From positions 1 through 35,204 of the forward strand of contig CAMAWJ010000004.1 in the NCBI GenBank assembly GCA_945861955.1: a stretch of DNA of 35,204 nucleotides. Reading direction: 5' to 3'. Origin of the DNA: Bifidobacterium breve (GTDB taxonomy: Bacteria; Actinomycetota; Thermoleophilia; Gaiellales; F1-60-MAGs149). Shown piece after piece: positions 6,302 through 30,368 of this stretch. Every line of letters starts with the position of its first letter. Position 1 is the first letter of the stretch. The translations under genes and the position numbers were made by a program. The notes below the pieces were generated by a model. It made no database searches, was not told the DNA's origin, and was given only the letters and a program-made list of their open reading frames with translations.

Positions 6302-6511
6302 ATGGAAACACTGTGGACGACGATGGTGCGGTTTATGCACCGACTGACGGATCGGCGCGGGCAGGGCACGGTTGAGTATCTCGGCCTCGTGCTCGCCGTG
6401 GGTGCGCTGCTCTTGGCCGTCTCCGTGCAGGTCAAGGGTGGCGGGGCCGGGATCGGTGGTCAGATCTCGAAATCGATGGAGAAAGCAATCTCCTCGATCA
6501 CTCAGCCCTAG
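6302..6511 (+). CDS. Flp/Fap-type (type IVb) pilin
   Basis: 69 aa; RRG^QGTVEYLGLVLAVGALLLAVSV matches the class III prepilin motif G^XXXXEY followed by a hydrophobic helix. Confidence 0.8.
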   Translation: METLWTTMVRFMHRLTDRRGQGTVEYLGLVLAVGALLLAVSVQVKGGGAGIGGQISKSMEKAISSITQP

Positions 6512-7329
6512 TCTCGGCTCGGCTCGGCTGGCCGATCGTGGCCGGCCGGGCCGACGCACGGGCTGTCGGTCGAGGAAATCATGTCGAGGATCAGTTGATC
6601 ATCGCGCAGCACGCCGATACGCCAGGCCTGGCTGCGTGACAGCGGCGAGTTTGTGGTGCGGGTCGCCGTTAGGAGGATGACGGGACGGCAGAGGACGATG
6701 TCGTCTGCACGCGTTGCTGGTGGCTGGGGGTCAGCACCAGCGGACAGGCTGGCCAGCAGCTGGATGGCGCTGAGCGCCAGACCGAGTGGTCGCGCGATGC
6801 GGTCGGCCACGATACCGGCTCCGTCCCAGCCCAATGCGGTTGCAGCAGCGACGGTGCGATCTGTCTTTGTCGTTTGGCCGGCGGCGTAGAGCGCCTCATC
6901 GCTCGCCGTAATGACCCGCAGAGAGATCTCGCCGGTTCCGCGTGCAACGATGCGGCGCGTGCCAGAGCGGCTCGGCAGGGAGCGGATCGTCAGATCGGCC
7001 AACCATGAAGAGTGGCGCACGGGAAGGCGCGTGACGATCGCCGCACGCAGCTGTTGATCGGCTGCGTCTGTGCCAATCGACTCGGCGAGCCAGGCGCGTG
7101 CGCCATTCAGCGAGATTGCCCCCGCACGACCAGACAGCGCGTGGTCGAGTGCGAGCGTGGCTGCTGGCGGTGGTGTCGCCGTCCTGTCGAGTCGCTCGGT
7201 GATCGTCTGGACGAGATTGGTATGAACGACCATTACGGTCGTCGTGGTGAGCAGTGCGGCAATGACGAGCAGGATCGCCAGCCACTCCACGCTCGCCTGG
7301 CCGCGGCGCGGGTCAGCAGGAGACTGCAT
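6508..7329 (-). CDS. Large pilin-like protein with type IVb prepilin N-terminus (paralog A)
   Basis: RRG^QASVEWLAILLVIAALLTTTTVMVV N-terminus; similar layout and C-terminal block to the neighbouring 7313..8143 product. Confidence 0.7.
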   Translation of the reverse strand: MQSPADPRRGQASVEWLAILLVIAALLTTTTVMVVHTNLVQTITERLDRTATPPPAATLALDHALSGRAGAISLNGARAWLAESIGTDAADQQLRAAIVTRLPVRHSSWLADLTIRSLPSRSGTRRIVARGTGEISLRVITASDEALYAAGQTTKTDRTVAAATALGWDGAGIVADRIARPLGLALSAIQLLASLSAGADPQPPATRADDIVLCRPVILLTATRTTNSPLSRSQAWRIGVLRDDQLILDMISSTDSPCVGPAGHDRPAEPSRD

Positions 7330-8143
7330 GGCTCCAGACCAGCTCGTGCTCGATCAGGCGTCCGGCACGAACGACAGCAATGTCGACTGCGGCGATCTGC
7401 GTGCCGAGTCGTAGACGGGTCGCCTCGAGCGGGTGGTGGTCGACCCACGTCGTGGTTGCGTGGTTGGTGCGCCAGACGAAGCGACAGATGATGACGTCGC
7501 CCTCGCGGCTCCCTGCGGGCGTGCCGCGCGTTGCGGTCTCGGCGGCGGCCGCACCAGCACCAATCACGATTGCAGCCGCGGCCGTCGCAGGATTGATCGA
7601 GCTGATCAGGGTGACAACGCCAGACGTACCGAGTTCGATGGCTTTGCTGGCCCCTGATGCTGACTGCGAGGCAAGCCAGCGCCGCTCATCGTCGGCCGAG
7701 ACGAGCCGTAGCGTGCGGGTCGCGCGGGGCGCCTCGGAGGACCACGCGCCGCTGGTGACGCTTGTCCCGACGCCGTTGAACTCCGCTCGGGCCAGCGCCC
7801 ACGCCGGGTCGGTGAGGGGGCGCAGGCGACCCGTGACAGCAGGTGGCGTCGCGGCTCGTAAGGCGTGCGAGAGAACGAGGGCTCGCGCCTCGGTTGGGCC
7901 GATCTCCTGGCTTAAGCGTTCGATCGCATCGTTGATCGTTGGGCCCGACCCAGTCATCGCCGCATCTACATAAGCCAGGGCGGCCGGGCTGGCCGTCGGG
8001 GGCTCCGAACGATCGAACGCGGACTGGACAGCGGCAACGATGCCACTGGCAGGGAGCGTTGTGGCACCGATTGCAAGCAGTGCGGCAACACAGCCGACCA
8101 GCACGACGTATTCGACAGTGCTCTGGCCGCGTTGCGATCGCAT
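7313..8143 (-). CDS. Large pilin-like protein with type IVb prepilin N-terminus (paralog B)
   Basis: QRG^QSTVEYVVLVGCVAALLAIG N-terminus; 276 aa; overlaps 6508..7329 by 17 nt. Confidence 0.7.
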   Translation of the reverse strand: MRSQRGQSTVEYVVLVGCVAALLAIGATTLPASGIVAAVQSAFDRSEPPTASPAALAYVDAAMTGSGPTINDAIERLSQEIGPTEARALVLSHALRAATPPAVTGRLRPLTDPAWALARAEFNGVGTSVTSGAWSSEAPRATRTLRLVSADDERRWLASQSASGASKAIELGTSGVVTLISSINPATAAAAIVIGAGAAAAETATRGTPAGSREGDVIICRFVWRTNHATTTWVDHHPLEATRLRLGTQIAAVDIAVVRAGRLIEHELVWSHAVSC

Positions 8144-9930: not shown

Positions 9931-10620
9931 ATGTGCGCAAGCCTGCTCGTAGTTGAGGACGACGAGATGATCTCGGAGTTCCTGGTCGACAATCTGCGAC
10001 AAGACGGTCACGCCGTGACCGTCGTCGGAACCGTCACGGATGCTCTCGTCGCGTTACGTCGCACCCGCACCGAGATCGCGCTGATCGATGTCTCTCTCCC
10101 TGATGGCTCGGGTCTCGACGTCGTTCGCATGATTCGCTCCGGCGAGGCCGGGGCGTCCGACATCGGTGTGGTCGTCGTCAGTGGACGCGGCACTGAGCAA
10201 GATCGAATCCGCGCGTTCGAGCGTGGGGTAGATGACTACATCGTGAAGCCCTTCAACTATCCAGAGCTGCTGCTTCGAACGGCATCGTTGGAATCTCGAC
10301 TCAGTGGGCGCGTGGCTTCGGTCCTGACGGTTGGCTCGCTGACGATGGACCTTGCAGCCCGCGCTGTCACCCTCGATGGCGTGCTGATCCATCTCCCCGG
10401 CAAGGAGTACGAGCTGCTCGCCGTCCTCGCGCGCGATCCCAACAAGGTCAACATGAAAGAGGATCTGATGGAGCGCATCTGGGGGTATCGCAACTGCGGG
10501 ACGCGCACCCTCGATTCGCACGCCTCGCGGCTACGGCGACGACTGACCGCTGTCGCTGACGGTCCCTGGGTGATCAACAACTGGAGCGTTGGGTACTCGC
10601 TGCGAACCGTGCTGCAATGA
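9931..10620 (+). CDS. OmpR-family response regulator, first of the Tad-coupled operon
   Basis: LLVVEDDEMISEFLVDNLRQDGH, DVSLPDGSGLDVV, VKPFNYPELLLR; winged helix MKEDLMERIWGYRNCGTRTLDSHASRLRRRL. Preceded by AAAGGAG. Confidence 0.9.
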   Translation: MCASLLVVEDDEMISEFLVDNLRQDGHAVTVVGTVTDALVALRRTRTEIALIDVSLPDGSGLDVVRMIRSGEAGASDIGVVVVSGRGTEQDRIRAFERGVDDYIVKPFNYPELLLRTASLESRLSGRVASVLTVGSLTMDLAARAVTLDGVLIHLPGKEYELLAVLARDPNKVNMKEDLMERIWGYRNCGTRTLDSHASRLRRRLTAVADGPWVINNWSVGYSLRTVLQ

Positions 10621-11801
10621 CTCGTCTCTGGCTCCGCATCGCGATCGCAACCGTGGCGATCGTGGCGACCCTAGTGGTCGCCGTCGATACCTTCGTGATC
10701 GGGCCGGCTGCAGACCAGTCCGCGCATGCCGCTGCAACTGCGGCCGCGACTGAGGCGACCTTGGTGGCTCAGCTCGTGCGTCAAGGAGGGTCGCCTCCGG
10801 GTGGCGCAGTCGTGCTCACGGGACGCACGCGCTCGGAGGCTGCTAGCGGGAGCGCTCCGATCGGTGACGGGCGCTTCGTGCAGGTGCCGTTCCGGGAGCA
10901 GGGCACACTCGTCGAGGCACTTTGGCGAGGTCTGCTGCTCGTCATCGGCACAGGAGCCTTGGCCGGAGCAGGGTGGGCGCTGTGGGCTGGGGTGGTGCGA
11001 GCGCGTGACCTTGGAAGCGTCTGTCGAGCGCTGCGCGAAATGGGCGGCGCTGAGTCTGCTGCGGTCGTACCGGCAGAGCCTGCGTCGATCGAGCATCTCG
11101 CTCGCGTCGTCGACGGGCTGCGAGCAACGCTCGCTCAGCAGGTGCTGTCGCAGGCCGAACTCGTCGGCATCATGGCGCACGATTTACGCAGCCCTTTGAC
11201 GGGAATCTCCCTGGCGGGCGATTGGTTGGAGCGTTCACAGAACAGTTCGGAGCGTGCGCGAGCGCGGGGTCAAATCCAGCGAGAATGCGATCGGTTGGCA
11301 GTAATTGCCGACGACGTGTTGCAACTGTGCAGAGACGCGCACTCAGACACCACCGATACGCAGCTCGGGGTCGCAGCCGATCAACTCTTGCTCGATGTGG
11401 TCGATCGGCTTCGCAGCGCCGGCTCAGCAGCCCAGCAGGTCCACGTTACGTCGGCTCTCTCCACAGCGGTGTGCGTCGACTCGAGCATCGCTCGTGCAGT
11501 CGCTAACCTCGCCGAGAACGCGGCCCGCCACGCACCCCCTGGCACACAGGTATCGCTCGCGGTCAGGCAGACCGAAGTGGGCGCAGTCGAGTTTGTCGTT
11601 GAGGATGAAGGTCCCGGATTTGCGCCGGAGCTGCTGGAGTGCGCGTTTGTACAGGGCGGCACGTCCCCGGGGCGCGCAGGACTTGGGCTCTCGAGCGTAC
11701 GACGAGTCGTCGCGGCAGCGGGTGGAACATCGCAGCTAGAACGCCGCGATCGTGGAACACGTGTCGTACTCCAGGTCCCCCAACTGGACCGGGGTCTGTG
11801 A
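10617..11801 (+). CDS. Membrane sensor histidine kinase
   Basis: TM segments; GIMAHDLRSPLTGISLAGDWLERS H-box; NLAENAARHAPPGT; VEDEGPGFAPE; GRAGLGLSSVRRVVAAAGG. ATGA overlap with the response regulator. Confidence 0.88.
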   Translation: MTRLWLRIAIATVAIVATLVVAVDTFVIGPAADQSAHAAATAAATEATLVAQLVRQGGSPPGGAVVLTGRTRSEAASGSAPIGDGRFVQVPFREQGTLVEALWRGLLLVIGTGALAGAGWALWAGVVRARDLGSVCRALREMGGAESAAVVPAEPASIEHLARVVDGLRATLAQQVLSQAELVGIMAHDLRSPLTGISLAGDWLERSQNSSERARARGQIQRECDRLAVIADDVLQLCRDAHSDTTDTQLGVAADQLLLDVVDRLRSAGSAAQQVHVTSALSTAVCVDSSIARAVANLAENAARHAPPGTQVSLAVRQTEVGAVEFVVEDEGPGFAPELLECAFVQGGTSPGRAGLGLSSVRRVVAAAGGTSQLERRDRGTRVVLQVPQLDRGL

Positions 11802-12505
11802 TGGCGGTTGCCGAAGCAAACTATGAAACGCGGTCGCTGCCAGCAACGCTCGAGCGCAGCCATTCTGCAGGACGCTCTGTGGTGCTCGTCGGTGCGCATG
11901 GTGGAGCGGGTACGTCCACAGCCGCACTGGCCATCGCGAGCGATGCGGATCGGGGGGTCTGCCTGATCGACGCGGATCTCACCGGCGGAACGCTCGGGAC
12001 GATCCTTGGTGTCGGTAGTCGGATTGGGGATGCCGGCCTTGCCGCGGTACGCGAGGGCGAGGGCAACGCGTTTTCGACACTCGCGCAACGGGTGCCGTTT
12101 GGTTGGTTCGTTGAAATCGGTCCGCGTCCCGAGCTCGTTTGGTTGATTCGAGATGGCGCGCTACGAGAGCTGACGAGGCAGGCGATGCGTCAGGTCTCCC
12201 TGATCGTGGTCGACGCCGCGCGTCCGGTCGGGCCATCCTGCGAGCCGGTCGTTGACGCGGACGTGATTGTCATCGTCGGGCATACCAATCGTTTTGATGC
12301 CATCGAGCGGACGCAGCAGCGACTCGTACGGCTGGGTGTCGATGCCGCCCGGATCGTGTTGTGCCCAACCGCGCCCACAATTGTCGAGCGTACAGTCGGG
12401 CGGCTGCGAGGAAGCCAGACGTGCATCGACGTGCGCCATGGCGACGAGCTACTGCTCCTCGTCGAGGGGCGGCTCGCCGCACTCGGCCCAAGGGAGCGCG
12501 GATGA
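11801..12505 (+). CDS. CpaE/ParA-like ATPase with degenerate Walker A (Tad system)
   Basis: VVLVGAHGGAGTSTAALAIASDADRGVCLIDADLTGGTLGTILG; located between a kinase gene and cpaF; TGATG overlap with the kinase stop. Confidence 0.78.
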   Translation: MAVAEANYETRSLPATLERSHSAGRSVVLVGAHGGAGTSTAALAIASDADRGVCLIDADLTGGTLGTILGVGSRIGDAGLAAVREGEGNAFSTLAQRVPFGWFVEIGPRPELVWLIRDGALRELTRQAMRQVSLIVVDAARPVGPSCEPVVDADVIVIVGHTNRFDAIERTQQRLVRLGVDAARIVLCPTAPTIVERTVGRLRGSQTCIDVRHGDELLLLVEGRLAALGPRERG

Positions 12506-13443
12506 CCTCGCTGCTGTCGTTGGCTGGCCCCTTGGCGCCGCTCCTGATGAACCCCGAGGTTGGCGAGGTTGTCGTCAACGGTCCATTCGATGTCTGGGTC
12601 GAGTTGGATGGCCAGTTGCGCCGTGTCGACACACGCTTTCGCGATTCGCTCGAGCTGAGGCAGACGGCAGTCAGATTGGTGGCTGCCTGTGGGCGGCGCA
12701 TTGACGACGCAACGCCGATGGTCGATGCTCGCCTGCCGGATGGTTCGCGCGTCAACGTCGTTCTGCCACCGCTCGCGGTTGACGGGCCACTGATCACGAT
12801 CCGTCGCTTCGGCACGGCGCCGCTGCGATTTAGCGACCTCGTGGAGCGTGGCTCGATCTCGGCCGAGCAGGCGATCGACCTGACGATGCTCGTGCAGAGC
12901 CGCCGCAACATGCTCATCAGCGGAGGGACGGGTACGGGTAAGACGACGTTGCTTGGGGCGCTGACGGGTTTGGTGCCAACGAATGAACGTCTCGTAACTG
13001 TCGAAGATGCCGCCGAGCTATCCGTTCAGGCCGAACACGTGGCGCGGCTGGAGGCGCGGCCAGCCAACGTCGAGGGGAAGGGAGCGATCGAGCTGCGGCA
13101 GCTGATCCGCAACGCGCTGCGGATGCGACCGGACCGGTTGATCGTCGGAGAGATTCGTGGAGGCGAGGCAATCGACCTCTTGCTTGCCATGAACACGGGC
13201 CACGATGGCTCACTCGCCACGATCCATGCCAATGGTCCGAAAGACGCATTGCGTCGGCTCGAGACGATGGCACTGATGGGCGGTGTCGATATTCCCCACA
13301 CCGCAATTCGTGAGCAGATTGCCTCGGCGGTTCACGCGGTGGTTCACGTCGTGCGATCCCCAGACGGAAACCGCTGTGTGGCATCCGTCGATCGCGTTGA
13401 GCGCGCTGGGGTCGGCTGGCATCTCCAAGCGGTCGAGCGATGA
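12502..13443 (+). CDS. cpaF: CpaF/TadA type II/IV secretion-family ATPase
   Basis: Walker A LISGGTGTGKTTLLGAL; VTVEDAAEL; LRMRPDRLIVGEIRGGEAIDLLLAMNTGHDGSLATIHAN. Confidence 0.93.
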   Translation: MTSLLSLAGPLAPLLMNPEVGEVVVNGPFDVWVELDGQLRRVDTRFRDSLELRQTAVRLVAACGRRIDDATPMVDARLPDGSRVNVVLPPLAVDGPLITIRRFGTAPLRFSDLVERGSISAEQAIDLTMLVQSRRNMLISGGTGTGKTTLLGALTGLVPTNERLVTVEDAAELSVQAEHVARLEARPANVEGKGAIELRQLIRNALRMRPDRLIVGEIRGGEAIDLLLAMNTGHDGSLATIHANGPKDALRRLETMALMGGVDIPHTAIREQIASAVHAVVHVVRSPDGNRCVASVDRVERAGVGWHLQAVER

Positions 13444-14003
13444 GGCTCTTCCGACGGAGCGACCCAACGGTGGGCCTGCTTGCGCGGACACTGCCGGAGA
13501 TCGCGCGGGCGCTGGCTCGCTGCTGTGCGGCGGGGCTCCCAATCGCAGACGCCTTCGATCGCGCAGCGGATGCAGTGGACGAGGTCGCTGTGGACCTGCT
13601 CCGTGCCTGTGCAGCGGGTCTCCGTTCGGGCGCTGCAACGCGTAGCGCCCTCGCGCCACTGCTACCTGTCCCCGGCGGCACCGTATTGGTGGGAACGATC
13701 GAGCTGCATCAGGAACTCGGCGGCGACCTCGTGGCATCGCTCGCGGCCGTCGCTGAGGGGCTTGCCGATCGTGAGCGTCTCCGCCTCGAAGCCGAGGTCG
13801 CCACTGCGCAGGCCAGGCTGGCGGCGCGCATCGTGCCGCTCGCGCCCGTGGTCTCACTCGGATTTCTCGGCGTGCTTGCGCCATCGGCACTTGCTGCGCT
13901 CTTTACGACCGCTCCGGGACTGGCGATACTCGGTGTCTCGGCGGGTCTGACCTGCGTCGCACTGTTCTTGCTTCGCCGCATCGCGCGGGCGGTGGGGTTG
14001 TGA
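13440..14003 (+). CDS. TadB-like inner-membrane protein (T2SSF domain)
   Basis: ALARCCAAGLPIADAFDRAA...ELGGDLVASLAAVAEGLADRERLRLEAEVATAQARLAARIVPLAPVVSLGFLGVL; position after cpaF. Confidence 0.75.
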   Translation: MRLFRRSDPTVGLLARTLPEIARALARCCAAGLPIADAFDRAADAVDEVAVDLLRACAAGLRSGAATRSALAPLLPVPGGTVLVGTIELHQELGGDLVASLAAVAEGLADRERLRLEAEVATAQARLAARIVPLAPVVSLGFLGVLAPSALAALFTTAPGLAILGVSAGLTCVALFLLRRIARAVGL

Positions 14004-14626
14004 CGACACCCCCACGACGGGCCGTTTCGATCGCGTGGCTGGCTGGCTGGGGTAGCGTCGGTCTCTGGCTGTGTTGGCTCGGGACTGGCAGTCTGGTCGT
14101 GGCGGCAGTCGGTGGACTCAGTGGTTGTGGCGTCGCGGTCATCTCGACTCGCCGCCGTCAGCGTGCTCTGCAGCGGCGACGAGCCGAGCAGATCACGGCT
14201 GCCCTGCCCGACGTGCTCGAGTTGCTCGCAGCCACGGTCGACGGTGGTGCTGCTCCCGACCTGGCCGTCAAGCGCGTCGCGGCGTTCGCGACTGAACCGC
14301 TCCGCAGTGTGCTCGTCGATGCCATCCAGGCGGCGGCTGGGGTCGGCCTCGGCGCGTCGATGCGTGCGTCTCACCCTGCGCTGCGACCATTGGGGTCCTT
14401 GTTCCAACAGAGCGAGGAACTGGGCGTCCCGATTGCTGGCGCGCTGCGCCTACTGGCGGGCGATGCGCGACTTCAGGCCCGGGCGGCAGCGCGTGAGCGC
14501 GCAGCCGCGGCTGCACCAAAGATGCTGCTCGTGATTGGTGGGTTGCTGGCACCGGCAGCACTGCTGATCGTGATTGGCGGCCAGGCGCTGGTGCTGCGTA
14601 GCCTGATCGGCCCGGTGATGGGCTGA
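14000..14626 (+). CDS. TadC-like inner-membrane protein (T2SSF domain)
   Basis: LPDVLELLAATVDGGAAPDLAVKRVAAF...QQSEELGVPIAGALRLLAGDARLQARAAARERAAAAAPKMLLVIGGLLAPAALLIVIG. Confidence 0.78.
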   Translation: MTTPPRRAVSIAWLAGWGSVGLWLCWLGTGSLVVAAVGGLSGCGVAVISTRRRQRALQRRRAEQITAALPDVLELLAATVDGGAAPDLAVKRVAAFATEPLRSVLVDAIQAAAGVGLGASMRASHPALRPLGSLFQQSEELGVPIAGALRLLAGDARLQARAAARERAAAAAPKMLLVIGGLLAPAALLIVIGGQALVLRSLIGPVMG

Positions 14627-15321
14627 TGCTCGCAAGACGGAGCGGACAGGCAACCACGGAGTGGGTCGCGGTGCTGATGGCGTGTACCGTGCTCGCCACG
14701 GTGGGCTTGAAGTTTGCGAATGGCCGTCTCGCGACCATGCCACCGCTCTCGCCGATGATGGCAGAGGTCGGCCAGCAGGCCCCGGGGCAGAGGGACGCTC
14801 TGGGAGCGGTGCAATCCTTCGGTCTCTTTCCCGTCGCATCGCTGCCCAGCATCGAAGGGGGCTCAATCGTCGCGATCGCCGAGCGCCTTGAGCGGCTACG
14901 CATCGTTGAGGTGCCATCTGGCTCGAATACCGGTCCGGGGATCATCGACTTTACCGATGGCAATGCCGAAGCGTGGTGCGCCGATTTTGTCTCCTGGGTG
15001 TTGCGAGCTGCAGGACGACCATTCACCGGTGGTGCATCTGGTGGCTGGCGATTGGCATGGACGCTCGATGTACGGGGCTGGTTCGCCGAGCGGGGTGCGT
15101 TTCGCGACCGGCTCGTCGCCGACCCACAGCCAGGCGACGTTGTCTGGTTTTCGTTCGGCCACGTCGGCATCGTGCGACGGGCTACGCCCACAACGATCGA
15201 CACGATCGAAGGCAACTCGGGCAACGCCGTTCGCGCACGCACCTATGACGGCTGGCGGCTCAATGCGAACATCGGCGGATTTGGGCGTCCCTTCGGCGAT
15301 AACGCACCAGTTGAGCACTGA
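14626..15321 (+). CDS. Fusion of type IVb prepilin-like N-terminus and CHAP peptidoglycan amidase domain
   Basis: N-terminus RRSG^QATTEWVAVLMACTVLATVGL; C-terminus AEAWCADFVSWVLRAAG...PQPGDVVWFSFGHVGIVRRATPTTIDTIEGNSGNAV with the CHAP Cys/His/Glu-Asn pattern. Shares one nucleotide with the tadC stop. Confidence 0.8.
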   Translation: MLARRSGQATTEWVAVLMACTVLATVGLKFANGRLATMPPLSPMMAEVGQQAPGQRDALGAVQSFGLFPVASLPSIEGGSIVAIAERLERLRIVEVPSGSNTGPGIIDFTDGNAEAWCADFVSWVLRAAGRPFTGGASGGWRLAWTLDVRGWFAERGAFRDRLVADPQPGDVVWFSFGHVGIVRRATPTTIDTIEGNSGNAVRARTYDGWRLNANIGGFGRPFGDNAPVEH

Positions 15322-20241: not shown

Positions 20242-20676
20242 ATGCTGCTTGGTGAATACGCTCAGAAGCTCGACGAGAAGAACCGCGTGACGGTTCCTGC
20301 TCGTCTGCGCGAGCCATTCGCCGACGGTCTGTTCGTCACGCGAGGCCTTGATCACTGCGTCGCGATCTACGCCCGTGACGGCTGGGAAAGCTTTGTTGAG
20401 GCGCAGACCTCGCGCCTTGATCCGTTTACGCGCGAAGGCCGCCAGCTCGAGCGTTTCCTCTTTGGTGGCGCTGTCGAAGCCGAGCTCGACCGGCAGGGAC
20501 GCGTCGCGCTACCCGCACCACTGATGCAGCACGCCGTACTCCAACGCGAGATCGTCGTCGTTGGTGTTCGTGATCGACTCGAAATTTGGGATCGCGTGGC
20601 CTGGGAACGTGGCCTCGCCGACTTGGAAGGTAGTGCCGAAAATGTCGCAGAACGCCTGGTCCGTGATGCCCGCTAA
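20242..20676 (+). CDS. mraZ: Transcriptional regulator MraZ
   Basis: MLLGEYAQKLDEKNRVTVPARLRE...LFGGAVEAELDRQGRVALPAPL; two SpoVT/AbrB-like repeats; start of the dcw cluster. Confidence 0.95.
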   Translation: MLLGEYAQKLDEKNRVTVPARLREPFADGLFVTRGLDHCVAIYARDGWESFVEAQTSRLDPFTREGRQLERFLFGGAVEAELDRQGRVALPAPLMQHAVLQREIVVVGVRDRLEIWDRVAWERGLADLEGSAENVAERLVRDAR

Positions 20677-21637
20677 CGCTGCCATCCATGATCCCGTGCT
20701 CGCACACGAAGTCGTGGCTCTGCTCGACGTGCAGCCCGGCATGACCGTCGTCGACGGCACCTTTGGTGCGGGTGGACACGCCACGATGCTGGCCGAGTTG
20801 ATGCAGGGGCGTGGGGCCTACGTCGCGATCGATCGCGACCCCTCGGTCGAGAATCGTGCCCGCTCGTTTCGAGCCTCCCATCCCGACATGGCCGTGCGCC
20901 TCCTCAAGCGTGATTTCGTGGACGCCTTCCGCTCGCTCGCCATCGAGAACGTCGAAGCCGATGCGATCCTGCTCGATCTCGGCGTCTCCTCGATGCAAAT
21001 CGACCAGCCCGAGCGCGGCTTCTCCTACGCTGTTGACGCGCCGCTCGACATGCGCATGGATCCGCGTGGGGGCGACACCGCCGCCGACCTACTCGCCAAC
21101 CTCTCAGAGCGCGAGCTCGCCGACATGTTCTCGCGCTACGGCGAAGAGCGCTACTCGCGCCAGATCGCTCGCGCCATCTGCCGCCGCCGCATGTCACAGC
21201 CCTACGAGCGCAGCGCCGACCTCGTCGACACGATCCGCCACGCGATTCCGACGCCAGCGCAGTTCGGCTCGGGGCATCCTGCCAAGCGCGTCTTCCAAGC
21301 ACTCCGCATTGCTGTCAACGACGAGCTGGCGATGGTCGAAGACGGTCTCGATGCAGCCATGCAGATCCTCAAGCCCGGTGGCCGCATCGCAGTCATCTCG
21401 TTCCATTCGCTCGAGGATCGAATCGTCAAAGAGCGGTTCCGTGACGCCTCTGCACCGTGCACGTGCCCGCCTGATCTTCCGATCTGTGGGTGCAATCGTG
21501 AGGCCACGCTGCGTGTCTTGACGCCTCGGGTGATTCGTCCTGGCTCGTCTGAACTTGACCGCAATCCTCGCGCCGCTTCGTCGCGCCTACGCGTCGCTGA
21601 GCGGACACCTGCCACCCTGCCGAAGGACGCCGCCTGA
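20666..21637 (+). CDS. rsmH: 16S rRNA (cytosine(1402)-N4)-methyltransferase
   Basis: HDPVLAHEVVALLDVQPGMTVVDGTFGAGGHATML, ILLDLGVSSMQIDQPERGFSY, GGRIAVISFHSLEDRIVKERF; start overlaps the mraZ end. Confidence 0.95.
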   Translation: MPANAAIHDPVLAHEVVALLDVQPGMTVVDGTFGAGGHATMLAELMQGRGAYVAIDRDPSVENRARSFRASHPDMAVRLLKRDFVDAFRSLAIENVEADAILLDLGVSSMQIDQPERGFSYAVDAPLDMRMDPRGGDTAADLLANLSERELADMFSRYGEERYSRQIARAICRRRMSQPYERSADLVDTIRHAIPTPAQFGSGHPAKRVFQALRIAVNDELAMVEDGLDAAMQILKPGGRIAVISFHSLEDRIVKERFRDASAPCTCPPDLPICGCNREATLRVLTPRVIRPGSSELDRNPRAASSRLRVAERTPATLPKDAA

Positions 21638-22074
21638 TGGCCGTTGCCGTTCCGCGCCCAACCACCGCGCCACCGCGCCCACGCCGCAAGCCCGCTCCGC
21701 GCCCAATCGACGGTGCCAAGGCAGCGCCGCGACGTCGAGCAGCGACGCGTCGCACACGCGCCACACGAGCCTCGGTGAATGGAAGGCTGGCGCCATTTCG
21801 AATTGCAACGATGATCGCGATTATTGGTGTTGTGCTCTCCTTGGTGGTCTATCTGCATGTCTCGTCCCTTCGCGGCACGATGCAGGCTGGCGAGTTGCGT
21901 ACGCAGGTTGAGGCCACCCAGAACGACGCCACAAACATCCAGGCCGAAACGGAACAACGGCTGGCAGATGGTCGCGTTGAGCGAGCCGCTGCCGCCTACG
22001 GCATGGTGCTGGTGCCGTCGCAGGCGATGCGAACGCTCCCGATCAGCATTCCGAAGGACCAGCAGACCAACTAA
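21637..22074 (+). CDS. ftsL: FtsL-like septum formation initiator
   Basis: Basic N-terminus, one TM (IATMIAIIGVVLSLVVYLHV), short coiled coil; between rsmH and ftsI. Confidence 0.7.
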   Translation: MAVAVPRPTTAPPRPRRKPAPRPIDGAKAAPRRRAATRRTRATRASVNGRLAPFRIATMIAIIGVVLSLVVYLHVSSLRGTMQAGELRTQVEATQNDATNIQAETEQRLADGRVERAAAAYGMVLVPSQAMRTLPISIPKDQQTN

Positions 22075-22075
22075 C

Positions 22076-23827
22076 GTGGCCACGCGCTCTGCTCCCCCTC
22101 GAACGCCGCGTCGCTCGACACGCCAGCGTCCGATTCCCCCGCCGGAGCGACGAATCCGCTGGTTGCTCGTAGCAGCCGCGCTGTTTCTCGTGATCTGCCT
22201 TGGACGGGCCGTGCAGATGCAGGTGGTCGACGGCGATTGGTATTCCACGCGTGCGACTGGTCAGCATCGCGTTGAGATCGTCACCACCGCGCCCCGTGGC
22301 GCGATCCTCGACCGTGACGGGTATCGCCTCGCGCTCACCGAACAGGCCAGCACGATCGGTGCAACGACGGCGATGATTACCGACCCTGCCCGGGTTGTGG
22401 CAGCGGTCGCAGAGGCCAGTGGCGAGTCGCCCGACACGATCATGCAGCGACTCCAAACGAGCGGACCTGCACACGTCGACCTCGCGCGCCAGGTACCAGC
22501 CGCCGCCGCCAAGCGCGTGCAGGCGATGGGCATCGAGGGGCTCGACTTTACGACCGAACACCGACGCGTCTATCCGAGCGCCATCGCCGCCCCTGTGATT
22601 GGGGTAACTGATCTAGAGAGCAAGGGGCTCGCCGGCCTCGAGCTGCAATACGACGAGATCTTGCGTGGCACCAACGGCCTTGAAGTGCGGATTGAAGATC
22701 CGGCCGGTAACGCCATCAACGTGATCAGCCAGCAAGAGATGCGCCCAGGGCACACGATTAGCACTGGGCTTGACCGTCAGATCCAGATCGAAGCCGAGGC
22801 TGTCACGGCGGAGACGCGTACGGAGTATCGCGCGAAAGCCGTGACTGCGATCGTGATGGATCCGAAGACCGGCGAGATCCTCGCCATGGCATCCGCACCC
22901 GCACCCGCGGAAGGTGACTTTCGGCAGGCGACCGCGGCTCAGGTCCGCCTACGAGCGATCACCGACGTCTATGAGCCTGGTTCGACCTTTAAGGCTGTGA
23001 CGCTTGGAGCAGGGTTGGCAACGGGGCGCATCTCGCCATCGACCACTGTCGATGTCGGCCCCGAATGGCAGTTGTACGACGGGATTCTGCGCGATTCGCA
23101 CCCAGACCCTGGTGTCAAGACCGCGACTGAGGCGCTGCGAATGTCGTCCAACATTGGTGTTGCCAAGCTTGCCTACGAGCACCTGTCGACATCGGGTGCG
23201 CGCGACAGCATCTTGGCAAAGTGGATCAATCGGTTCGGCTTCGGCGCGCCAACCGGCATCGACCTACCAGGCGAAGTGGCGGGCATCGTACCCGCCTACA
23301 AGGACTGGTCGGGAACGTCGCCGCTGAACATTCCGATTGGGCACGGCATCGCCACCACACCAATTCAGATTGCTCAGCTATACGCCACGATCGCGAATGG
23401 TGGCATCCAAACCACACCGCACCTCGTGACACGCATTGATGGACAGGGCCCGGTTGGGCTGAAGCAGCAGCGCGTCATGCCAACGCGCGCGGCGAACACG
23501 CTCGTGGGCATGCTGGAGGGCGTTGTCTCGGATCAAGGAACAGCCTCGGCGGCACAGATCCCGGGCTACTCCGTGGCGGGCAAGACCGGCACTACGAAGA
23601 AGATCGACAAGGACGGCACGTACTCCGATAACCGCTACCTCGCCTGGTTCGTCGGTTTCGCGCCGGTTAAGAATCCACGGGTCTTGACGCTGATCATGGT
23701 CGACCAACCGCGCGGTGGGCAGTACTACGGTGGCGAAGTTGCCGGACCGGCGTTCGCGAAACTGACCGAGCGAGCCCTGATTGCGCTCGGCGTACAGCAG
23801 GATCGCCCCGACACCGCAGCGGAGTAG
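22076..23827 (+). CDS. ftsI: Peptidoglycan transpeptidase FtsI/PBP3-like
   Basis: YEPGSTFKAVTLGAGL (SxxK), MSSNIGVAKLAYE (SxN), VAGKTGTTKK (KTG); GTG start at 22076. Confidence 0.93.
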   Translation: MATRSAPPRTPRRSTRQRPIPPPERRIRWLLVAAALFLVICLGRAVQMQVVDGDWYSTRATGQHRVEIVTTAPRGAILDRDGYRLALTEQASTIGATTAMITDPARVVAAVAEASGESPDTIMQRLQTSGPAHVDLARQVPAAAAKRVQAMGIEGLDFTTEHRRVYPSAIAAPVIGVTDLESKGLAGLELQYDEILRGTNGLEVRIEDPAGNAINVISQQEMRPGHTISTGLDRQIQIEAEAVTAETRTEYRAKAVTAIVMDPKTGEILAMASAPAPAEGDFRQATAAQVRLRAITDVYEPGSTFKAVTLGAGLATGRISPSTTVDVGPEWQLYDGILRDSHPDPGVKTATEALRMSSNIGVAKLAYEHLSTSGARDSILAKWINRFGFGAPTGIDLPGEVAGIVPAYKDWSGTSPLNIPIGHGIATTPIQIAQLYATIANGGIQTTPHLVTRIDGQGPVGLKQQRVMPTRAANTLVGMLEGVVSDQGTASAAQIPGYSVAGKTGTTKKIDKDGTYSDNRYLAWFVGFAPVKNPRVLTLIMVDQPRGGQYYGGEVAGPAFAKLTERALIALGVQQDRPDTAAE

Positions 23828-23912
23828 GCATGCCCGCCGCAACTGGTGCCGAACTGCTCCGGACACCAGAACGGGGAATCCGCGGGGCAGGCGGACTAGG
23901 ATTTGGCTCATA

Positions 23913-25328
23913 GTGCTGCTCACGGACCTCCTCGGTCCCGTTCTAGCGCGGGGCACGACGCTCCCAATTGCTGGAGTTGACGTCGTCGACCTCGCGTACG
24001 ACTCGCGACGAGTCGCAGACGGGACATTGTTCTTCTGCGCTCCAGGCGCCACCACGGATGGGCACGACCATGCTGAGGCGGCCGTAGCGGCAGGTGCCGT
24101 TGCTCTCGTTGTCGAGCGTGAGTTACCGATTGCCGTTCCACAGGTCATTGTCGCCTCGACACGGACGCAGATGGGACCGCTCGCAGACACGTTTTTCGGA
24201 CACCCATCGCGTCAACTTCGTGTGCTCGGCGTGACCGGAACGAACGGGAAGACAACTACTGCCTATCTCCAGCACGCGATTCTCGCTGCAGCAGGACAGC
24301 AAGCGGGACTGCTCGGCACGATCGAACGACGGATTGGTGGCCTGAGCGAGGCCGCGGTGCGCACGACCACAGAGGCGATCGATCTCCACCGCGATTTTCG
24401 CCGGATGGTTGATGCTGGCGATACGGGGTGCGCGATAGAGGTCTCGTCGCATGCGCTCGAGCAGGAGCGAGTGGGGGGTGTCACATTCGCCGCAGCGGCC
24501 TTTACCAACCTGACGCGCGATCACCTCGATTATCACCCGAGCATGGAGGCCTACTTCGCCGCCAAGGCATCGCTCTTCGACGGCCGTTGCCCGACTGCCA
24601 CGAACGCCGACGACGACTACGGCTGCCAACTCTCGTCCGACCTCCGCTATGGCATCGAGGCAACGGCTGCCGAGGTACGCGCCGAGCAGATCGTGCTTGG
24701 CCCCACCAGCACGCGGTTTCGTTTGTGCAGCCCGTGGGGCGATGTCGACGTGCAGACAGAACTCGTCGGGATGTTCAATGTTGAAAATGCGCTTGCGGCC
24801 GCCAGCAGCGGCGGACTTGCCGGCATTGAGATTGAGGCGATCGTTGCGGGGCTTGCACGGGTTTCGGGTGTGCCGGGTCGCCTCGAAGTCGTGAGCGACA
24901 ACCAGCCATTTGCGGTGATCGTCGACTACGCACACACAGCAGATGCACTCGGAAATGTCTTGCGCGCCGTACGCGATCTTGCCACGGGCCGCGTGATTGT
25001 CGTGTTCGGATGCGGCGGTGATCGTGATCGCGGCAAGCGACCCGAGATGGCACGCGTCGCCAGCGATTTGGCTGATCACGTGATCATCACGTCAGATAAC
25101 CCTCGCTCGGAGGATCCACAGGCGATTGTCGACGAGGCGCTCGCCGGTGTCGACGGAGGCATCGATGTCGAGTTGGACCGCCGCACTGCGATCGCTCGAG
25201 CGATCGAGTTGGCCGGCCCAGGCGACGTTGTCCTGATCGCCGGCAAGGGCCACGAACAAGGGCAAGACAGCGATGGCGTGATCACTCCATTCGACGATCG
25301 TGTGGTTGCACGAGAGGTGCTGGCGTGA
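23913..25328 (+). CDS. murE: UDP-N-acetylmuramyl-tripeptide synthetase, meso-diaminopimelate type
   Basis: VTGTNGKTTTAYLQHAIL P-loop; HTADALGNVLRAVR; ITSDNPRSEDP, where DNPR is the meso-DAP-specificity motif. Confidence 0.93.
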   Translation: MLLTDLLGPVLARGTTLPIAGVDVVDLAYDSRRVADGTLFFCAPGATTDGHDHAEAAVAAGAVALVVERELPIAVPQVIVASTRTQMGPLADTFFGHPSRQLRVLGVTGTNGKTTTAYLQHAILAAAGQQAGLLGTIERRIGGLSEAAVRTTTEAIDLHRDFRRMVDAGDTGCAIEVSSHALEQERVGGVTFAAAAFTNLTRDHLDYHPSMEAYFAAKASLFDGRCPTATNADDDYGCQLSSDLRYGIEATAAEVRAEQIVLGPTSTRFRLCSPWGDVDVQTELVGMFNVENALAAASSGGLAGIEIEAIVAGLARVSGVPGRLEVVSDNQPFAVIVDYAHTADALGNVLRAVRDLATGRVIVVFGCGGDRDRGKRPEMARVASDLADHVIITSDNPRSEDPQAIVDEALAGVDGGIDVELDRRTAIARAIELAGPGDVVLIAGKGHEQGQDSDGVITPFDDRVVAREVLA

Positions 25329-26695
25329 TTCCCCTCAAACTCGTGGACGTGCCGGCATCGCTGGTGATGCGTGGCGACGCACAGGTCCGCGCCACCGGTG
25401 TCGCCATCGATTCCCGGCTGGTTGAGGCCGGCGATCTCTTCATCGCAATTCGAGGTGGTATCGACCACATCGAGGCAGCCACGGCTGCCGGCGCGATTGC
25501 GGTCGTCGTGGAAGAAGACCATGTCGAAAAGGCACTCGAGACGGCGATTCCGACGATCCTGGCGACGTTCTCGAGCGTTCGCTGTCTGCAGTGCATCGGC
25601 GACGTCAACGCGGCAGCCACGCTGGCGCGGCGCGTTGGCATTACGGGCAGCACAGGAAAAACGTCGACGAAGGACGCGCTCGCGCACCTGATTGCGGATC
25701 AGCGGCGTGTCGTCGCGGCGCTCGAGGGCCACAACAACGAGATCGGCTATCCGCTAACCCTGACGCGGATCAATGCGGACACCGAGGTTGCGGTCTGCGA
25801 GCTGGCGATGCGAGGCAAGGGTCAGATCGCAGAACTCTGTGCGATTGCCGCGCCGGATATCGGTGTGATTACGAACATTGGTGTTGCGCACGTGGAGCTG
25901 CTCGGATCGCTCGAGGCGATTGCCGCTGCCAAGGCAGAGATCGCTGAGGGGCTCCGCGATGGTGGGAATCTCGTGCTGCCCTTTGCCGAGCCACTGCTCG
26001 ATCCGTACGTGCCGGCCGACGCGCAGATCACGACCTTTGGCGATGAGGCGGGCTCGGATGTTCAGCTCGTCGACCGAATCGTTCGCGACGACGGACAGGA
26101 CTTGACGTACCTCGTCTATGGCGAACTCCTGACGCTCAGCACCAACCTCGTCGGCCGTCACCATGCCCGCAACTTGGCTGCTGCGATTGCGGTCTGTCAG
26201 CTTCTCGGCCTCGATCTCGAAGCTGTCGCTGCGCGCGCAGGAGCGATTCCGCTGCCGCGTTGGCGGGGCGAAACGCAGCGTCTCGCGGGCGGCATTGATG
26301 TCGTCAATGATACCTACAACGCCAACCCGGCCTCGATGGAGGCGGCGCTACGGCTGCTGGCTGAGACACCAACGGAAGGGCGCCGCATCGCTGTCCTGGG
26401 GCTGATGGCCGAGCTCGGACCAGAGGCGGAGAGGTACCACCGAGAGGTTGGAGCGCTGGCGGCGAGGGTCGGGGTCGATATGGTGGTCGCCGTGGGGGAT
26501 CTCGCACGTGCCTATCTCGACGGAGCCGGTGATGGAGTGTCGGGCTTTGCAGTTGCCGATGCGACTGCTGCCGTCGAGCAGGTGCTCGCCACCGTGCAGC
26601 CAGGCGATCGCGTGCTGGTCAAAGGCTCGCGGGCGGCTGGGCTAGAGGTCGTGCCAGTACTTCTTGCAGAACGCCTCGAAGGCTCTGCTCCATGA
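25325..26695 (+). CDS. murF: UDP-N-acetylmuramoyl-tripeptide--D-Ala-D-Ala ligase
   Basis: ITGSTGKTSTKDALAHLI; EGHNNEIGYPLTLTRI; DTYNANPASMEAAL; GTGA coupling to murE. Confidence 0.94.
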   Translation: MIPLKLVDVPASLVMRGDAQVRATGVAIDSRLVEAGDLFIAIRGGIDHIEAATAAGAIAVVVEEDHVEKALETAIPTILATFSSVRCLQCIGDVNAAATLARRVGITGSTGKTSTKDALAHLIADQRRVVAALEGHNNEIGYPLTLTRINADTEVAVCELAMRGKGQIAELCAIAAPDIGVITNIGVAHVELLGSLEAIAAAKAEIAEGLRDGGNLVLPFAEPLLDPYVPADAQITTFGDEAGSDVQLVDRIVRDDGQDLTYLVYGELLTLSTNLVGRHHARNLAAAIAVCQLLGLDLEAVAARAGAIPLPRWRGETQRLAGGIDVVNDTYNANPASMEAALRLLAETPTEGRRIAVLGLMAELGPEAERYHREVGALAARVGVDMVVAVGDLARAYLDGAGDGVSGFAVADATAAVEQVLATVQPGDRVLVKGSRAAGLEVVPVLLAERLEGSAP

Positions 26696-27753
26696 CCAGT
26701 GTGCTCGCCTCTGGCGTCGTCGCGATTCTGATTTCGGTCTTTGCTGGACCACGCTTTATTACCTTGCTCCGCCGCTACAAGGTTGGTCAGCGCATCCGCG
26801 ATGAGGGCCCCGTTGGTCATCAGACAAAGTCCGGCACACCCACCATGGGCGGCCTGCTGATCATCCTCGCAACGCTCGTTCCCTACGCCATCTTCTCGTC
26901 CTACGGAGCGCGCAGCCTCGCGGTTATCGGGGTGATGGTCGGCTGTGGCCTGATTGGCTTTCTCGACGACTATCTCAGCGTGATCCGGCGTCGCTCGCTT
27001 GGTCTGCAGGGACGGTGGAAGCTACTGGGGCAGGTTCTGATCTCGGCCGGCATCTGCTTTGTGGCCGTCCGTGAGGGCATCTCAACGAGCGTCTTTATTC
27101 CCATTGCTGATACCCACCTCGACCTTGGTGCCGGGTGGTACGTGCTCGTCTTCTTGATCGTGGTGGGAGCCTCGAACGCCGTCAACCTGACGGACGGTCT
27201 TGATGGCCTCGCGGCTGGCACCTCCGTGATCGCGATGCTTGCGTTTACCGCGATGTGCGTGATTGGCTTCCAAGTGGGGCAGCGAGCACTATCGGTTCCG
27301 GGCATGGAAAATGCCGCGATCGGTTCCGGGCTGTTTGACCTGCAATCGAAGACGTCAGAGACGCTCGACCTCGCGATCCTCGCCGCGGCGCTGCTCGGCG
27401 CCTGTGTGGGTTTTCTCTGGTTCAACAGTCATCCGGCTGAGGTCTTTATGGGCGACACGGGGTCGCTTGCGCTCGGTGGCGCGCTCGCTGGCTTCGCGAT
27501 CTTTACGAAGACAGAACTCTTGCTGCCCTTGATTGGCGGCATCTTCGTCGCCGAGGCTGGCAGCGTGATCATCCAAGTGATTAGCTTCCGACGCTTTGGT
27601 CGGCGTGTCTTCTTGATGGCACCCGTGCATCACCACTTCGAGATGAAGGCCTGGAGCGAAACCAAGATCATGTTCCGTTTCTTGATCGTGGCCTCGATCT
27701 TCTCCTCGATTGCGTTCGTCCTCTACTACGTGCGCTTTGACCAGTACGTATGA
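26692..27753 (+). CDS. mraY: Phospho-N-acetylmuramoyl-pentapeptide transferase
   Basis: Polytopic; GHQTKSGTPTMGG, FLDDYLSV, NAVNLTDGLDGLA, FMGDTGSLALGG, APVHHHFEMKAWSE. Confidence 0.96.
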   Translation: MTSVLASGVVAILISVFAGPRFITLLRRYKVGQRIRDEGPVGHQTKSGTPTMGGLLIILATLVPYAIFSSYGARSLAVIGVMVGCGLIGFLDDYLSVIRRRSLGLQGRWKLLGQVLISAGICFVAVREGISTSVFIPIADTHLDLGAGWYVLVFLIVVGASNAVNLTDGLDGLAAGTSVIAMLAFTAMCVIGFQVGQRALSVPGMENAAIGSGLFDLQSKTSETLDLAILAAALLGACVGFLWFNSHPAEVFMGDTGSLALGGALAGFAIFTKTELLLPLIGGIFVAEAGSVIIQVISFRRFGRRVFLMAPVHHHFEMKAWSETKIMFRFLIVASIFSSIAFVLYYVRFDQYV

Positions 27754-29036
27754 GCGGCGACTTCGAGTTACCACATCACCCGCTCGTGCTGGGTGCCGCC
27801 CGTTCTGGCCGAGCGGCAGCGCGAGCGTTACTTGAGGCTGGGGTGGAGGTGACGCTCGTCGATGATGCGCCCGACGAGAGTGTTGACGCGCCCTGTGCAA
27901 TCGTCGCACCAGCCGTTGTCGATGTGGGCGAGTTCGATGTCATCGTCAAGAGCCCTGGCGTGCCAAGCGATCACCCTCTACTGATCGCTGCGCGGGCGCT
28001 CGACCTGCCGATTTGGGCAGAGGTCGAGCTCGGCTATCGACTCTTGCCACCCGGCGCACGCGTGATCGGGGTGACGGGCACGAACGGCAAGACCACGACG
28101 ATCGAACTGGTCGGAGCGATGCTCTACGCAGCAGCGCTACCTCACGTCGTCTGTGGCAATGTCGGCACAGCGCTGTGCGAGGTCGCGGTCCACCTTCCAC
28201 AGGGCGGCATCGTGGTCTGCGAACTGTCGAGTTTTCAACTGGAAGACATCGTGAGTTTTCACTGCGATGCAGCGGCCGTGACCAACATCACGCCAGATCA
28301 TCTGGATCGACACGGCTCGCTGGAAGACTACGAGCGCGCAAAACTGCGGATCTTCGAGACACAAGATGACAACGACATTGCGGTCCTCAACGATGACGAT
28401 CCACGCTGTGCTGACCTCTCGCGGCTACCGGGTGACGGCGAGATTGTGCGCGTCCATGGCGCCGATGCTGAGGCGTACGGGTTTGCCGACGGACTGTTGC
28501 TGGGTGATCACAATCGTGAGAACGTGGCTGTAGCGGCCGCGCTCGTGCAGGCTGTCGACGTCTCGCCTGAGTGTATTGCTGCGGCTGTGCACGACTTTGT
28601 GCCCGTCCCGCACCGACTCGAGGACTGCGGCAGCGTCGCTGGTGTCCAGTTCTGGAACGACTCCAAGGCGACGAATGTCGATGCCACAATCAAGGCGCTG
28701 ACGGCGTTTCCCGATGGCGCCGTGCGGTTGATTCTCGGCGGCAGCGATAAGGGTGCCGATTTTGCCCCACTCGCCACCGCGCTTCCGGGCCGCATTCGAC
28801 GCGCCTATCTGACTGGACCCGCAGGGGCTCGCATGCACGAAACGCTGGCCGAGGCCGGTGTCGATGCGGTGCTGTGCGAGGGGCTTGCTGCTGCCGTCAA
28901 GACAGCCGCGCGTGACGCCGAACGCGGTGAGCACGTGTTGCTCGCGCCGGCCTGCGCCAGTTTCGACGAATTTGCCGACTACGTCGCTCGGGGAGAGCAC
29001 TTTCGTGCGTTGGTTGTAGCGCTCGGCGCTGCGTAG
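27750..29036 (+). CDS. murD: UDP-N-acetylmuramoyl-L-alanine--D-glutamate ligase
   Basis: VTGTNGKTTTIELVGAML; ELSSFQLEDI; NDSKATNVDATIKAL; LLAPACASFDEFADYVARGEHF. Confidence 0.95.
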   Translation: MSGDFELPHHPLVLGAARSGRAAARALLEAGVEVTLVDDAPDESVDAPCAIVAPAVVDVGEFDVIVKSPGVPSDHPLLIAARALDLPIWAEVELGYRLLPPGARVIGVTGTNGKTTTIELVGAMLYAAALPHVVCGNVGTALCEVAVHLPQGGIVVCELSSFQLEDIVSFHCDAAAVTNITPDHLDRHGSLEDYERAKLRIFETQDDNDIAVLNDDDPRCADLSRLPGDGEIVRVHGADAEAYGFADGLLLGDHNRENVAVAAALVQAVDVSPECIAAAVHDFVPVPHRLEDCGSVAGVQFWNDSKATNVDATIKALTAFPDGAVRLILGGSDKGADFAPLATALPGRIRRAYLTGPAGARMHETLAEAGVDAVLCEGLAAAVKTAARDAERGEHVLLAPACASFDEFADYVARGEHFRALVVALGAA

Positions 29037-29079
29037 TTGCTGGCAGAGGGGATGCCAGTCGAGTGGCGAAACCAGCGCT

Positions 29080-30339
29080 GTGCAACGCGCCAATCCTCTC
29101 CGGCTGTTTCGTTCCGACGCAGCGAGTCCACCCTTGCTGCGGCGTGAGTTGCCACTCGAGGGGCAGGTGTTAGGAATCGTCACGATCATCCTGACCGTCG
29201 TTGGACAGTTGATGGTGTACTCGGCCTCGAGTGCATACGCGATGACGCACTCTGAGTTCAATTTTGATTCGCTCTATTTCATCAAGACAGGCCTCCTCTA
29301 CACGATCTTCGGTGTCGCCCTGATGCTGGGACTGGTTTTTGTGCCGGCTGGCTGGCTGCGACGTTTTGCGCCAATCATCTTTATCGCCTCACTGATCGGT
29401 CTGATTGCCGTCAAGGTTCCAGGCGTTGGCGTCACGGTCAACGGAGCTGCCCGCTGGCTGGCGCTCGGACCAATCACGATCCAGCCCTCCGAGTTTGCAA
29501 AGGTCGGGACGCTCCTGATCGTCGCAGCGATGCTCGCAACCAGGAAACGACCGCCGGAGACCGTCAGAGAACTGTTGATGCCAATTGGCTTGGTCGTCGG
29601 TGTGGTCTGCGCGCTGATCATGGTGCAGCCCGACCTCGGGACGACGATTGCGGTCTGCCTGATGGTCTTTGCCCTGCTTGTCGTGGCGGGCACCAAAAAG
29701 TCGTTGCTCGCCTTGGTGCTTAGTGCTGGCCTTGTGGTCGGGTCCTTGCTGATTTATGCCGCGCCGTACCGTCGCGATCGCTTCCTCGCGTTCCTCGACC
29801 CGTGGTCGCAGAGTGCCGATGGCGCCTACCAAGTGGTCCAGTCGATGATCGCGATCGGCTCCGGGGGCATCTTCGGGGTCGGCTTGGGTTCCAGCGTGCA
29901 GAAAGTCAACTTCCTGCCTGAGGCGCACACCGACATGATCTTTGCCGTGATTGGCGAAGAGCTAGGCCTGTTCGGCTCGGTCTTGATCGTCGCGCTGTTT
30001 GCGGTCTTCGCCTGGGCGGGCTACACGATCGCGATGCGCACAGTCGATCCGTTTCAACGCCTCTTGGCCGCTGGCGCGACGGCGCTGATCGTGGGACAGG
30101 CCATTGTCAACCTTGGCGCTGTGATGGGCATCTTGCCGCTGACGGGCATTCCGCTGCCGCTGATCTCGTATGGCTCGTCGTCGCGGATCGTGATCTTGGC
30201 ACTGGTTGGCATGCTGATTGCAATCAGCCGCGAGCCGCAGATTGCTCCACCGACTCGACGAAGACGTGCGCCCGAGCCCGAGCCCGATACTTCAGTTGCA
30301 CGTCCTACTCGGCGGCGGACTACGGCGAAAGCGCGCTAG
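29080..30339 (+). CDS. ftsW: Peptidoglycan glycosyltransferase FtsW
   Basis: SEDS family: GAARWLALGPITIQPSEFAK, MVQPDLGTT, LPEAHTDMIFAVIGEELG, PLISYGSSSRI; GTG start. Confidence 0.93.
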   Translation: MQRANPLRLFRSDAASPPLLRRELPLEGQVLGIVTIILTVVGQLMVYSASSAYAMTHSEFNFDSLYFIKTGLLYTIFGVALMLGLVFVPAGWLRRFAPIIFIASLIGLIAVKVPGVGVTVNGAARWLALGPITIQPSEFAKVGTLLIVAAMLATRKRPPETVRELLMPIGLVVGVVCALIMVQPDLGTTIAVCLMVFALLVVAGTKKSLLALVLSAGLVVGSLLIYAAPYRRDRFLAFLDPWSQSADGAYQVVQSMIAIGSGGIFGVGLGSSVQKVNFLPEAHTDMIFAVIGEELGLFGSVLIVALFAVFAWAGYTIAMRTVDPFQRLLAAGATALIVGQAIVNLGAVMGILPLTGIPLPLISYGSSSRIVILALVGMLIAISREPQIAPPTRRRRAPEPEPDTSVARPTRRRTTAKAR

Positions 30340-30368
30340 GCGCCGCGGCGTCCTCTAGCCTTGAAGGT

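Follow-up and report, generated by a model that had tools for sequence, protein, structure and literature searches.

A Tad pilus locus in a family of uncultured Actinobacteria encodes a prepilin-like protein with a predicted CHAP peptidoglycan hydrolase domain

The window, a stretch of 35,204 nucleotides, carries a Tad/Flp-type pilus locus (Table 1). A TadA ATPase, TadB- and TadC-like proteins, a TadZ-like protein and a Flp-like pilin were all recovered there, the NCBIfam matches of TadZ and TadA lying below the curated cut-offs and the Pfam matches above them. The Flp candidate gave no Pfam match above cut-off and is 100% identical in the related locus L116. In L116 and L111, homologues of the two large prepilin-like proteins adjoin Flp, and homologues are present in this neighborhood in L111 and L112, which belong to other genera; these two proteins may fill the TadE/TadF/TadG roles. 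Structure prediction of the longer one without an alignment was uninformative (pLDDT 41). The last gene of the cluster encodes the protein studied here, and its ATG shares one base with the TGA of tadC. A dcw-like wall and division cluster follows the Tad genes downstream, at a distance of about 5 kb (20564–33636, +); in it, ORFs for RsmH, FtsL, a PBP, MurE, MurF, MraY, MurD, FtsW, MurG, MurC and MurB were recognized by eye.

Table 1. Features of the Tad locus, in window coordinates
Feature	Position	Strand	Basis and remarks
Flp major prepilin candidate	6335..6511	+	MHRLTDRRG^QGTVEYLGLVL; alternative upstream start 6302
Large prepilin-like protein	6508..7329	-	273 aa, RRG^QASVEWLAI; no Pfam domain; paralogue of 7313-8143 (-)
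Large prepilin-like protein	7313..8143	-	276 aa, QRG^QSTVEYVVL; no Pfam domain
Response regulator adjoining histidine kinase	9931..10620	+	PF00072, PF00486; synteny
Histidine kinase	10617..11801	+	HisKA, HATPase_c; syntenic with Tad operon in family
TadZ/CpaE-like protein	11798..12505	+	TIGR03815 (CpaE_hom_Actino) E 2.7e-9, below curated cut-off; synteny
TadA/CpaF ATPase	12502..13443	+	PF00437 E 8e-60; TIGR03819 E 4e-105, slightly below curated cut-off
TadB-like platform protein	13440..14003	+	187 aa; PF00482 E 1.7e-12
TadC-like platform protein	14000..14626	+	208 aa; PF00482 E 8.7e-9; synteny; overlaps fusion gene start
Prepilin-CHAP fusion protein	14626..15321	+	231 aa; ORF, Pfam, alignment, AlphaFold2, Foldseek

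The fusion protein consists of a leader (residues 1–7), a helix (8–33), a disordered linker (about 34–72) and a CHAP domain (about 78–222). Its N-terminus, RRSG^QATTEW, is of the class III prepilin type, with a short leader whose last residue is Gly, a Glu at position +5 and a hydrophobic helix. An initial annotation, made from the sequence alone, had claimed a Flp-like prepilin layout for this N-terminus, and the pattern G^Qx[ST]xE[YW] is indeed common to the Flp candidate, the two large prepilin-like proteins and the CHAP protein. Its comparison with the N-terminus of TadE/TadF/TadG minor pilins does not extend to membership of that family, since neither Flp_Fap (PF04964) nor TadE (PF07811) gave a Pfam match at E ≤ 0.1 and no canonical TadE was found in the genus. 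Other actinobacterial Tad loci are ordered tadA-B-C-(flp)-tadE/F-tadG (PMC4322843) or tadZABC-flp-tadE-tadF (PMC9531140), so that the fusion gene stands where flp, tadE and tadF sit elsewhere. The fusion shares with the TadE/TadF/TadG pseudopilins this place after tadC, a single N-terminal helix and a G^xxxxE processing site (PMC4322843, PMC9531140), but differs from them in matching neither profile and in having a CHAP domain at its C-terminus. Judged by its sequence, it is a putative pseudopilin in a TadE-type operon slot, outside the TadE/TadF/TadG family.

Pfam assigns residues 111–197 to CHAP (PF05257; E = 1.8e-11, 44.8 bits, the cut-off being 26), and the profile matches 13/13 aligned members. 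The AlphaFold2 model, built with the 13-sequence alignment, shows a helix at residues 5–33, disorder at about 33–69 and a confident CHAP domain at about 78–222. When this model was compared with the PDB by Foldseek, CHAP and NlpC-P60 enzymes came out on top, the best being the CHAP lysin Ly7917 (probability 1.00, E = 1.7e-3), followed by Acd24020, PlyC, the phi812 CHAP and Spr/MepS; a sequence search of the PDB with the fusion protein gave no significant match. C118, H179, E195 and N197 are invariant in the 13 aligned sequences (window included) and follow the order and spacing of C54/H117/E134/N136, the catalytic set of LysK (PMC4126393). The CHAP hallmarks pointed out in the initial annotation are thus borne out by profile, by predicted fold and by residues, and we infer from sequence and model that the domain would hydrolyze peptidoglycan. 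An inactive CHAP that only binds, anchoring the pilus base to peptidoglycan, would answer a plausible need of a pilus that has no outer-membrane channel, but the invariance of all four catalytic-site residues makes this the least probable of the readings considered. The predicted fold and the catalytic Cys/His/Glu(/Asn) set are shared with CHAP endolysins and autolysins (LysK, Ly7917, Acd24020), from which the fusion differs in having no phage context and no separate wall-binding domain and in being carried by a prepilin helix. An origin of the CHAP from a phage lysin was rejected: phage and plasmid matches span the CHAP half only, at 32–39% identity, and no close donor was found.

Among 100 related genomes searched, orthologues occur in 13 other genomes, all from one bacterial family and spread over three genera, as the initial annotation required of a genuine fusion. 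The two family members without an ortholog match are genomes 70–71% complete. Copies with a name come mostly from lake MAGs that have Thermoleophilia, Gaiellales or Actinobacteria in their titles; one contig titled Bifidobacterium breve (L035, CAMDVX010000079.1) also has this Tad locus, and its organism label is probably wrong. Gene order is tadA-tadB-tadC followed by the fusion gene in 12/13 relatives, and in the 13th (L012) the contig ends there. Synteny also supports the description of the fusion gene as the last of the Tad operon, the next gene (15379, +) not being seen behind the fusion in the two other genera. A chance or mis-called ORF is ruled out by the orthologues and by dN/dS of close pairs (0.13–0.25 over the whole gene; 0.06–0.18 in the CHAP), and an artefactual join of two genes by the 13 full-length copies, window included, without an internal stop.

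The alignment of these 13 full-length proteins shows where the constraint lies. Mean pairwise identity is 77.5% at residues 7–13, 34% in the rest of the helix (14–33), 18% in the linker (34–72), 54% at residues 73–110 and 70% in the CHAP (111–222), as would be expected of two constrained modules with a free linker between them. Q8 (+1) and E12 (+5) are invariant, and G7 (−1) is kept in 12/13 sequences, with Ala once. That prepilin residues are retained while the remaining helix and the linker drift speaks against the objection, raised beforehand, that the N-terminus might be an ordinary uncleaved anchor. The central proposal of the initial annotation, a prepilin N-terminus joined to a CHAP domain within a Tad operon, is upheld by the predicted CHAP fold, by the invariant catalytic residues and by retention of the fusion in three genera.

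We searched for further fusions with the alignment as a profile, taking loci from the best 30 matches per search and reading part of them. In the class search (399 genomes), family members scored E < 1e-83 and everything else E > 1e-27. No further prepilin-CHAP fusion was found among the matches examined, either in the class search or in the phylum search (397 genomes), and the proteins read from L057–L072 had no prepilin N-terminus. For L164–L179 a motif filter returned only L173, and for the others the judgment used just the profile coverage and the E-value. L173, from another actinobacterium, is an ordinary membrane-anchored CHAP protein, and the fusion might likewise be a plain wall hydrolase of this kind, its N-terminus a signal anchor only and its gene a passenger of the Tad operon serving growth or division; the division and cell-wall genes about 5 kb from the Tad cluster are compatible with such a role. 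We regard this as unlikely, given that the anchor of L173 lacks the GQxxxE motif, that Q+1 and E+5 are invariant within a helix otherwise only 34% identical, and that the gene remains behind tadC across three genera.

In the draft genomes of the host genus, which are 69–93% complete, TadE and RcpC/CpaB were each found in 0/10 genomes, flagellin in 0/13, and the secretin RcpA in 0/10 genomes of the genus and 0/16 overall, the last being expected because there is no outer membrane. Among T2SSE ATPases of the genus, TadA alone clearly exceeds the cut-off; one genome has an extra marginal match and another has none above it. An A24 prepilin peptidase was found in 8/10 genomes, one per genome; that of the window's genome has 210 aa and no other Pfam domain and its gene lies away from the tad locus, the usual situation in actinobacteria (PMC4322843). 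Within the family, the CHAP-Tad locus of one genus contains an RcpC-like gene (L112), and three genera have a second, canonical Tad locus, with no CHAP in those read.

Several envelope machines have peptidoglycan hydrolases of their own, such as FlgJ, VirB1 and the lytic transglycosylases of T4P operons. These share the task proposed here, opening the wall for an appendage; they are, however, separate proteins or part of a rod cap, whereas the enzyme of the fusion is joined to a pilin-type subunit. For the Tad pilus, unlike other appendages, a structural study of 2025 noted the lack of any reported peptidoglycan hydrolase or lytic transglycosylase and suggested that RcpC may recruit one (PMC12307814). 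Among open-licence papers we found none that links a Tad pilus or a prepilin with a CHAP domain. Peptidoglycan hydrolases as partners of other envelope machines are already known, and so are modular pilins (PMC8179133). A survey of modular type IV pilins lists 264 architectures, predicted peptidases (S74, M26) among them; such pilins, for example Streptococcus sanguinis PilB and PilC, resemble the fusion in having a class III prepilin N-terminus, a linker and a functional domain foreign to pili. The pilins of the survey were collected through IPR012902 (T4P-type), and its main text names no CHAP (PMC8179133). The fusion likewise appears, from sequence and model, to combine a pilin module, a linker and a functional domain foreign to pili. 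It differs from the modular T4P pilins in being of Tad/Flp type, in having no globular pilin head and in carrying a peptidoglycan-hydrolase domain, so that peptidoglycan hydrolysis would join the functions apparently grafted onto pilins.

Our preferred reading (probability about 0.6) is that the fusion is a modular Tad pseudopilin that brings a peptidoglycan hydrolase to the base of the pilus and opens the wall there. Its class III signal would enter the membrane so that the CHAP domain faces outward, and the genome's A24 prepilin peptidase would cut it after Gly7. The hydrophobic helix would then become part of the growing Flp filament at its base, or of a TadE/TadF-like collar surrounding the filament; the flexible linker, roughly 40 residues long, would be enough for the CHAP to contact and cleave the overlying peptidoglycan, and the pilus would extend through the wall where TadABC works. 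We infer each of these steps, from membrane insertion and processing to association with the pilus machine, hydrolysis and the opening of the wall. In Micrococcus luteus, TadE and TadF are required for pili and yet are not found in sheared pili, and a structure located at the pilus base or extending across the wall was proposed (PMC4322843); a CHAP carried by a TadE/TadF-like subunit would sit where the wall needs opening. This proposal, the position in the TadE/TadF slot and the lack of any Tad hydrolase reported before favor a wall opener at the base over an effector at the tip or an unrelated anchored hydrolase. The reading also draws on the retained residues 7–13, on the LysK-like catalytic set, on the place behind tadC in all 12 relatives with a checkable contig, and on a genus in which the A24 peptidase is kept while TadE, RcpC, secretin and flagellin were not found. 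Against it stand an N-terminus that Pfam recognizes as neither Flp nor TadE, hosts that are uncultured MAGs and support that is computational. Other actinobacterial Tad systems also manage without such a fusion, and no CHAP was seen in the canonical Tad loci that two other genera of the family have as their second, so that a fused hydrolase is not generally needed.

The initial annotation had offered both a wall passage and a tip-borne effector. Of these the wall passage seems to us the better-supported mechanism, and no positive evidence was found for the effector. A Myxococcus Tad-like apparatus kills prey on contact and leaves local holes in prey peptidoglycan (PMC8460266), and exposure at the pilus tip has been suggested for modular pilins (PMC8179133); a fusion at the pilus tip might accordingly cut the peptidoglycan of neighbors in contact killing or predation. 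The coupling of the gene to tadABC, the lack of a conserved gene behind it as a possible immunity protein, and a strong conservation of the CHAP that would suit an enzyme acting on the cell's own wall more than a diversifying effector render this improbable. Flp pili are needed for transformation in Micrococcus luteus (PMC4322843), and the locus might similarly build a DNA-uptake pilus whose CHAP makes an opening in the wall through which DNA can enter, or releases DNA from neighbors. No link to competence genes was seen, and we think this quite improbable, although it amounts to a form of wall opening and is compatible with our preferred reading.

That reading may explain how the Tad pilus of an uncultured family of lake Actinobacteria passes a thick wall, in a genus that has a hydrolase domain on a pilin-type subunit and no detected RcpC or TadE, and a single gene makes the question of the Tad pilus crossing such a wall testable. 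We would give even odds to the stronger statement that the pilus machine has a wall-opening enzyme of its own incorporated in a pilin-type subunit, coupling peptidoglycan cutting to assembly at the base, in what would be the first dedicated Tad-pilus peptidoglycan hydrolase.

As to origin, the slot after tadC looks like an old prepilin slot to which a CHAP was added, because in a sister family the prepilin gene that comes next, either directly after tadC or close to it, specifies a small Flp-like protein that has no CHAP. Such sister-family genes lie at L103:7556-8068, L104:9596-9916 and L105:2928-3146, their proteins sharing a tail like HRRPxxxCLCP. In the tree, all the fusions group in a single clade (100/100). 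Outside the family, several of the nearest CHAPs adjoin flagellin, FlgK, flagellin-like hook-associated or FliW genes, which agrees with a wall-opening role, but the fusion clade joins these flagellar-cluster CHAPs weakly and on a long branch (90/86), which weakens the argument; derivation of the fusion CHAP from flagellar-cluster CHAPs is suggested, with weak support in the tree. Flagellar gene clusters of the class at L147, L149 and L150 also encode CHAP proteins with an N-terminus of the MSxExxLxRVxEI type, possibly the flagellar wall hydrolase of the class.
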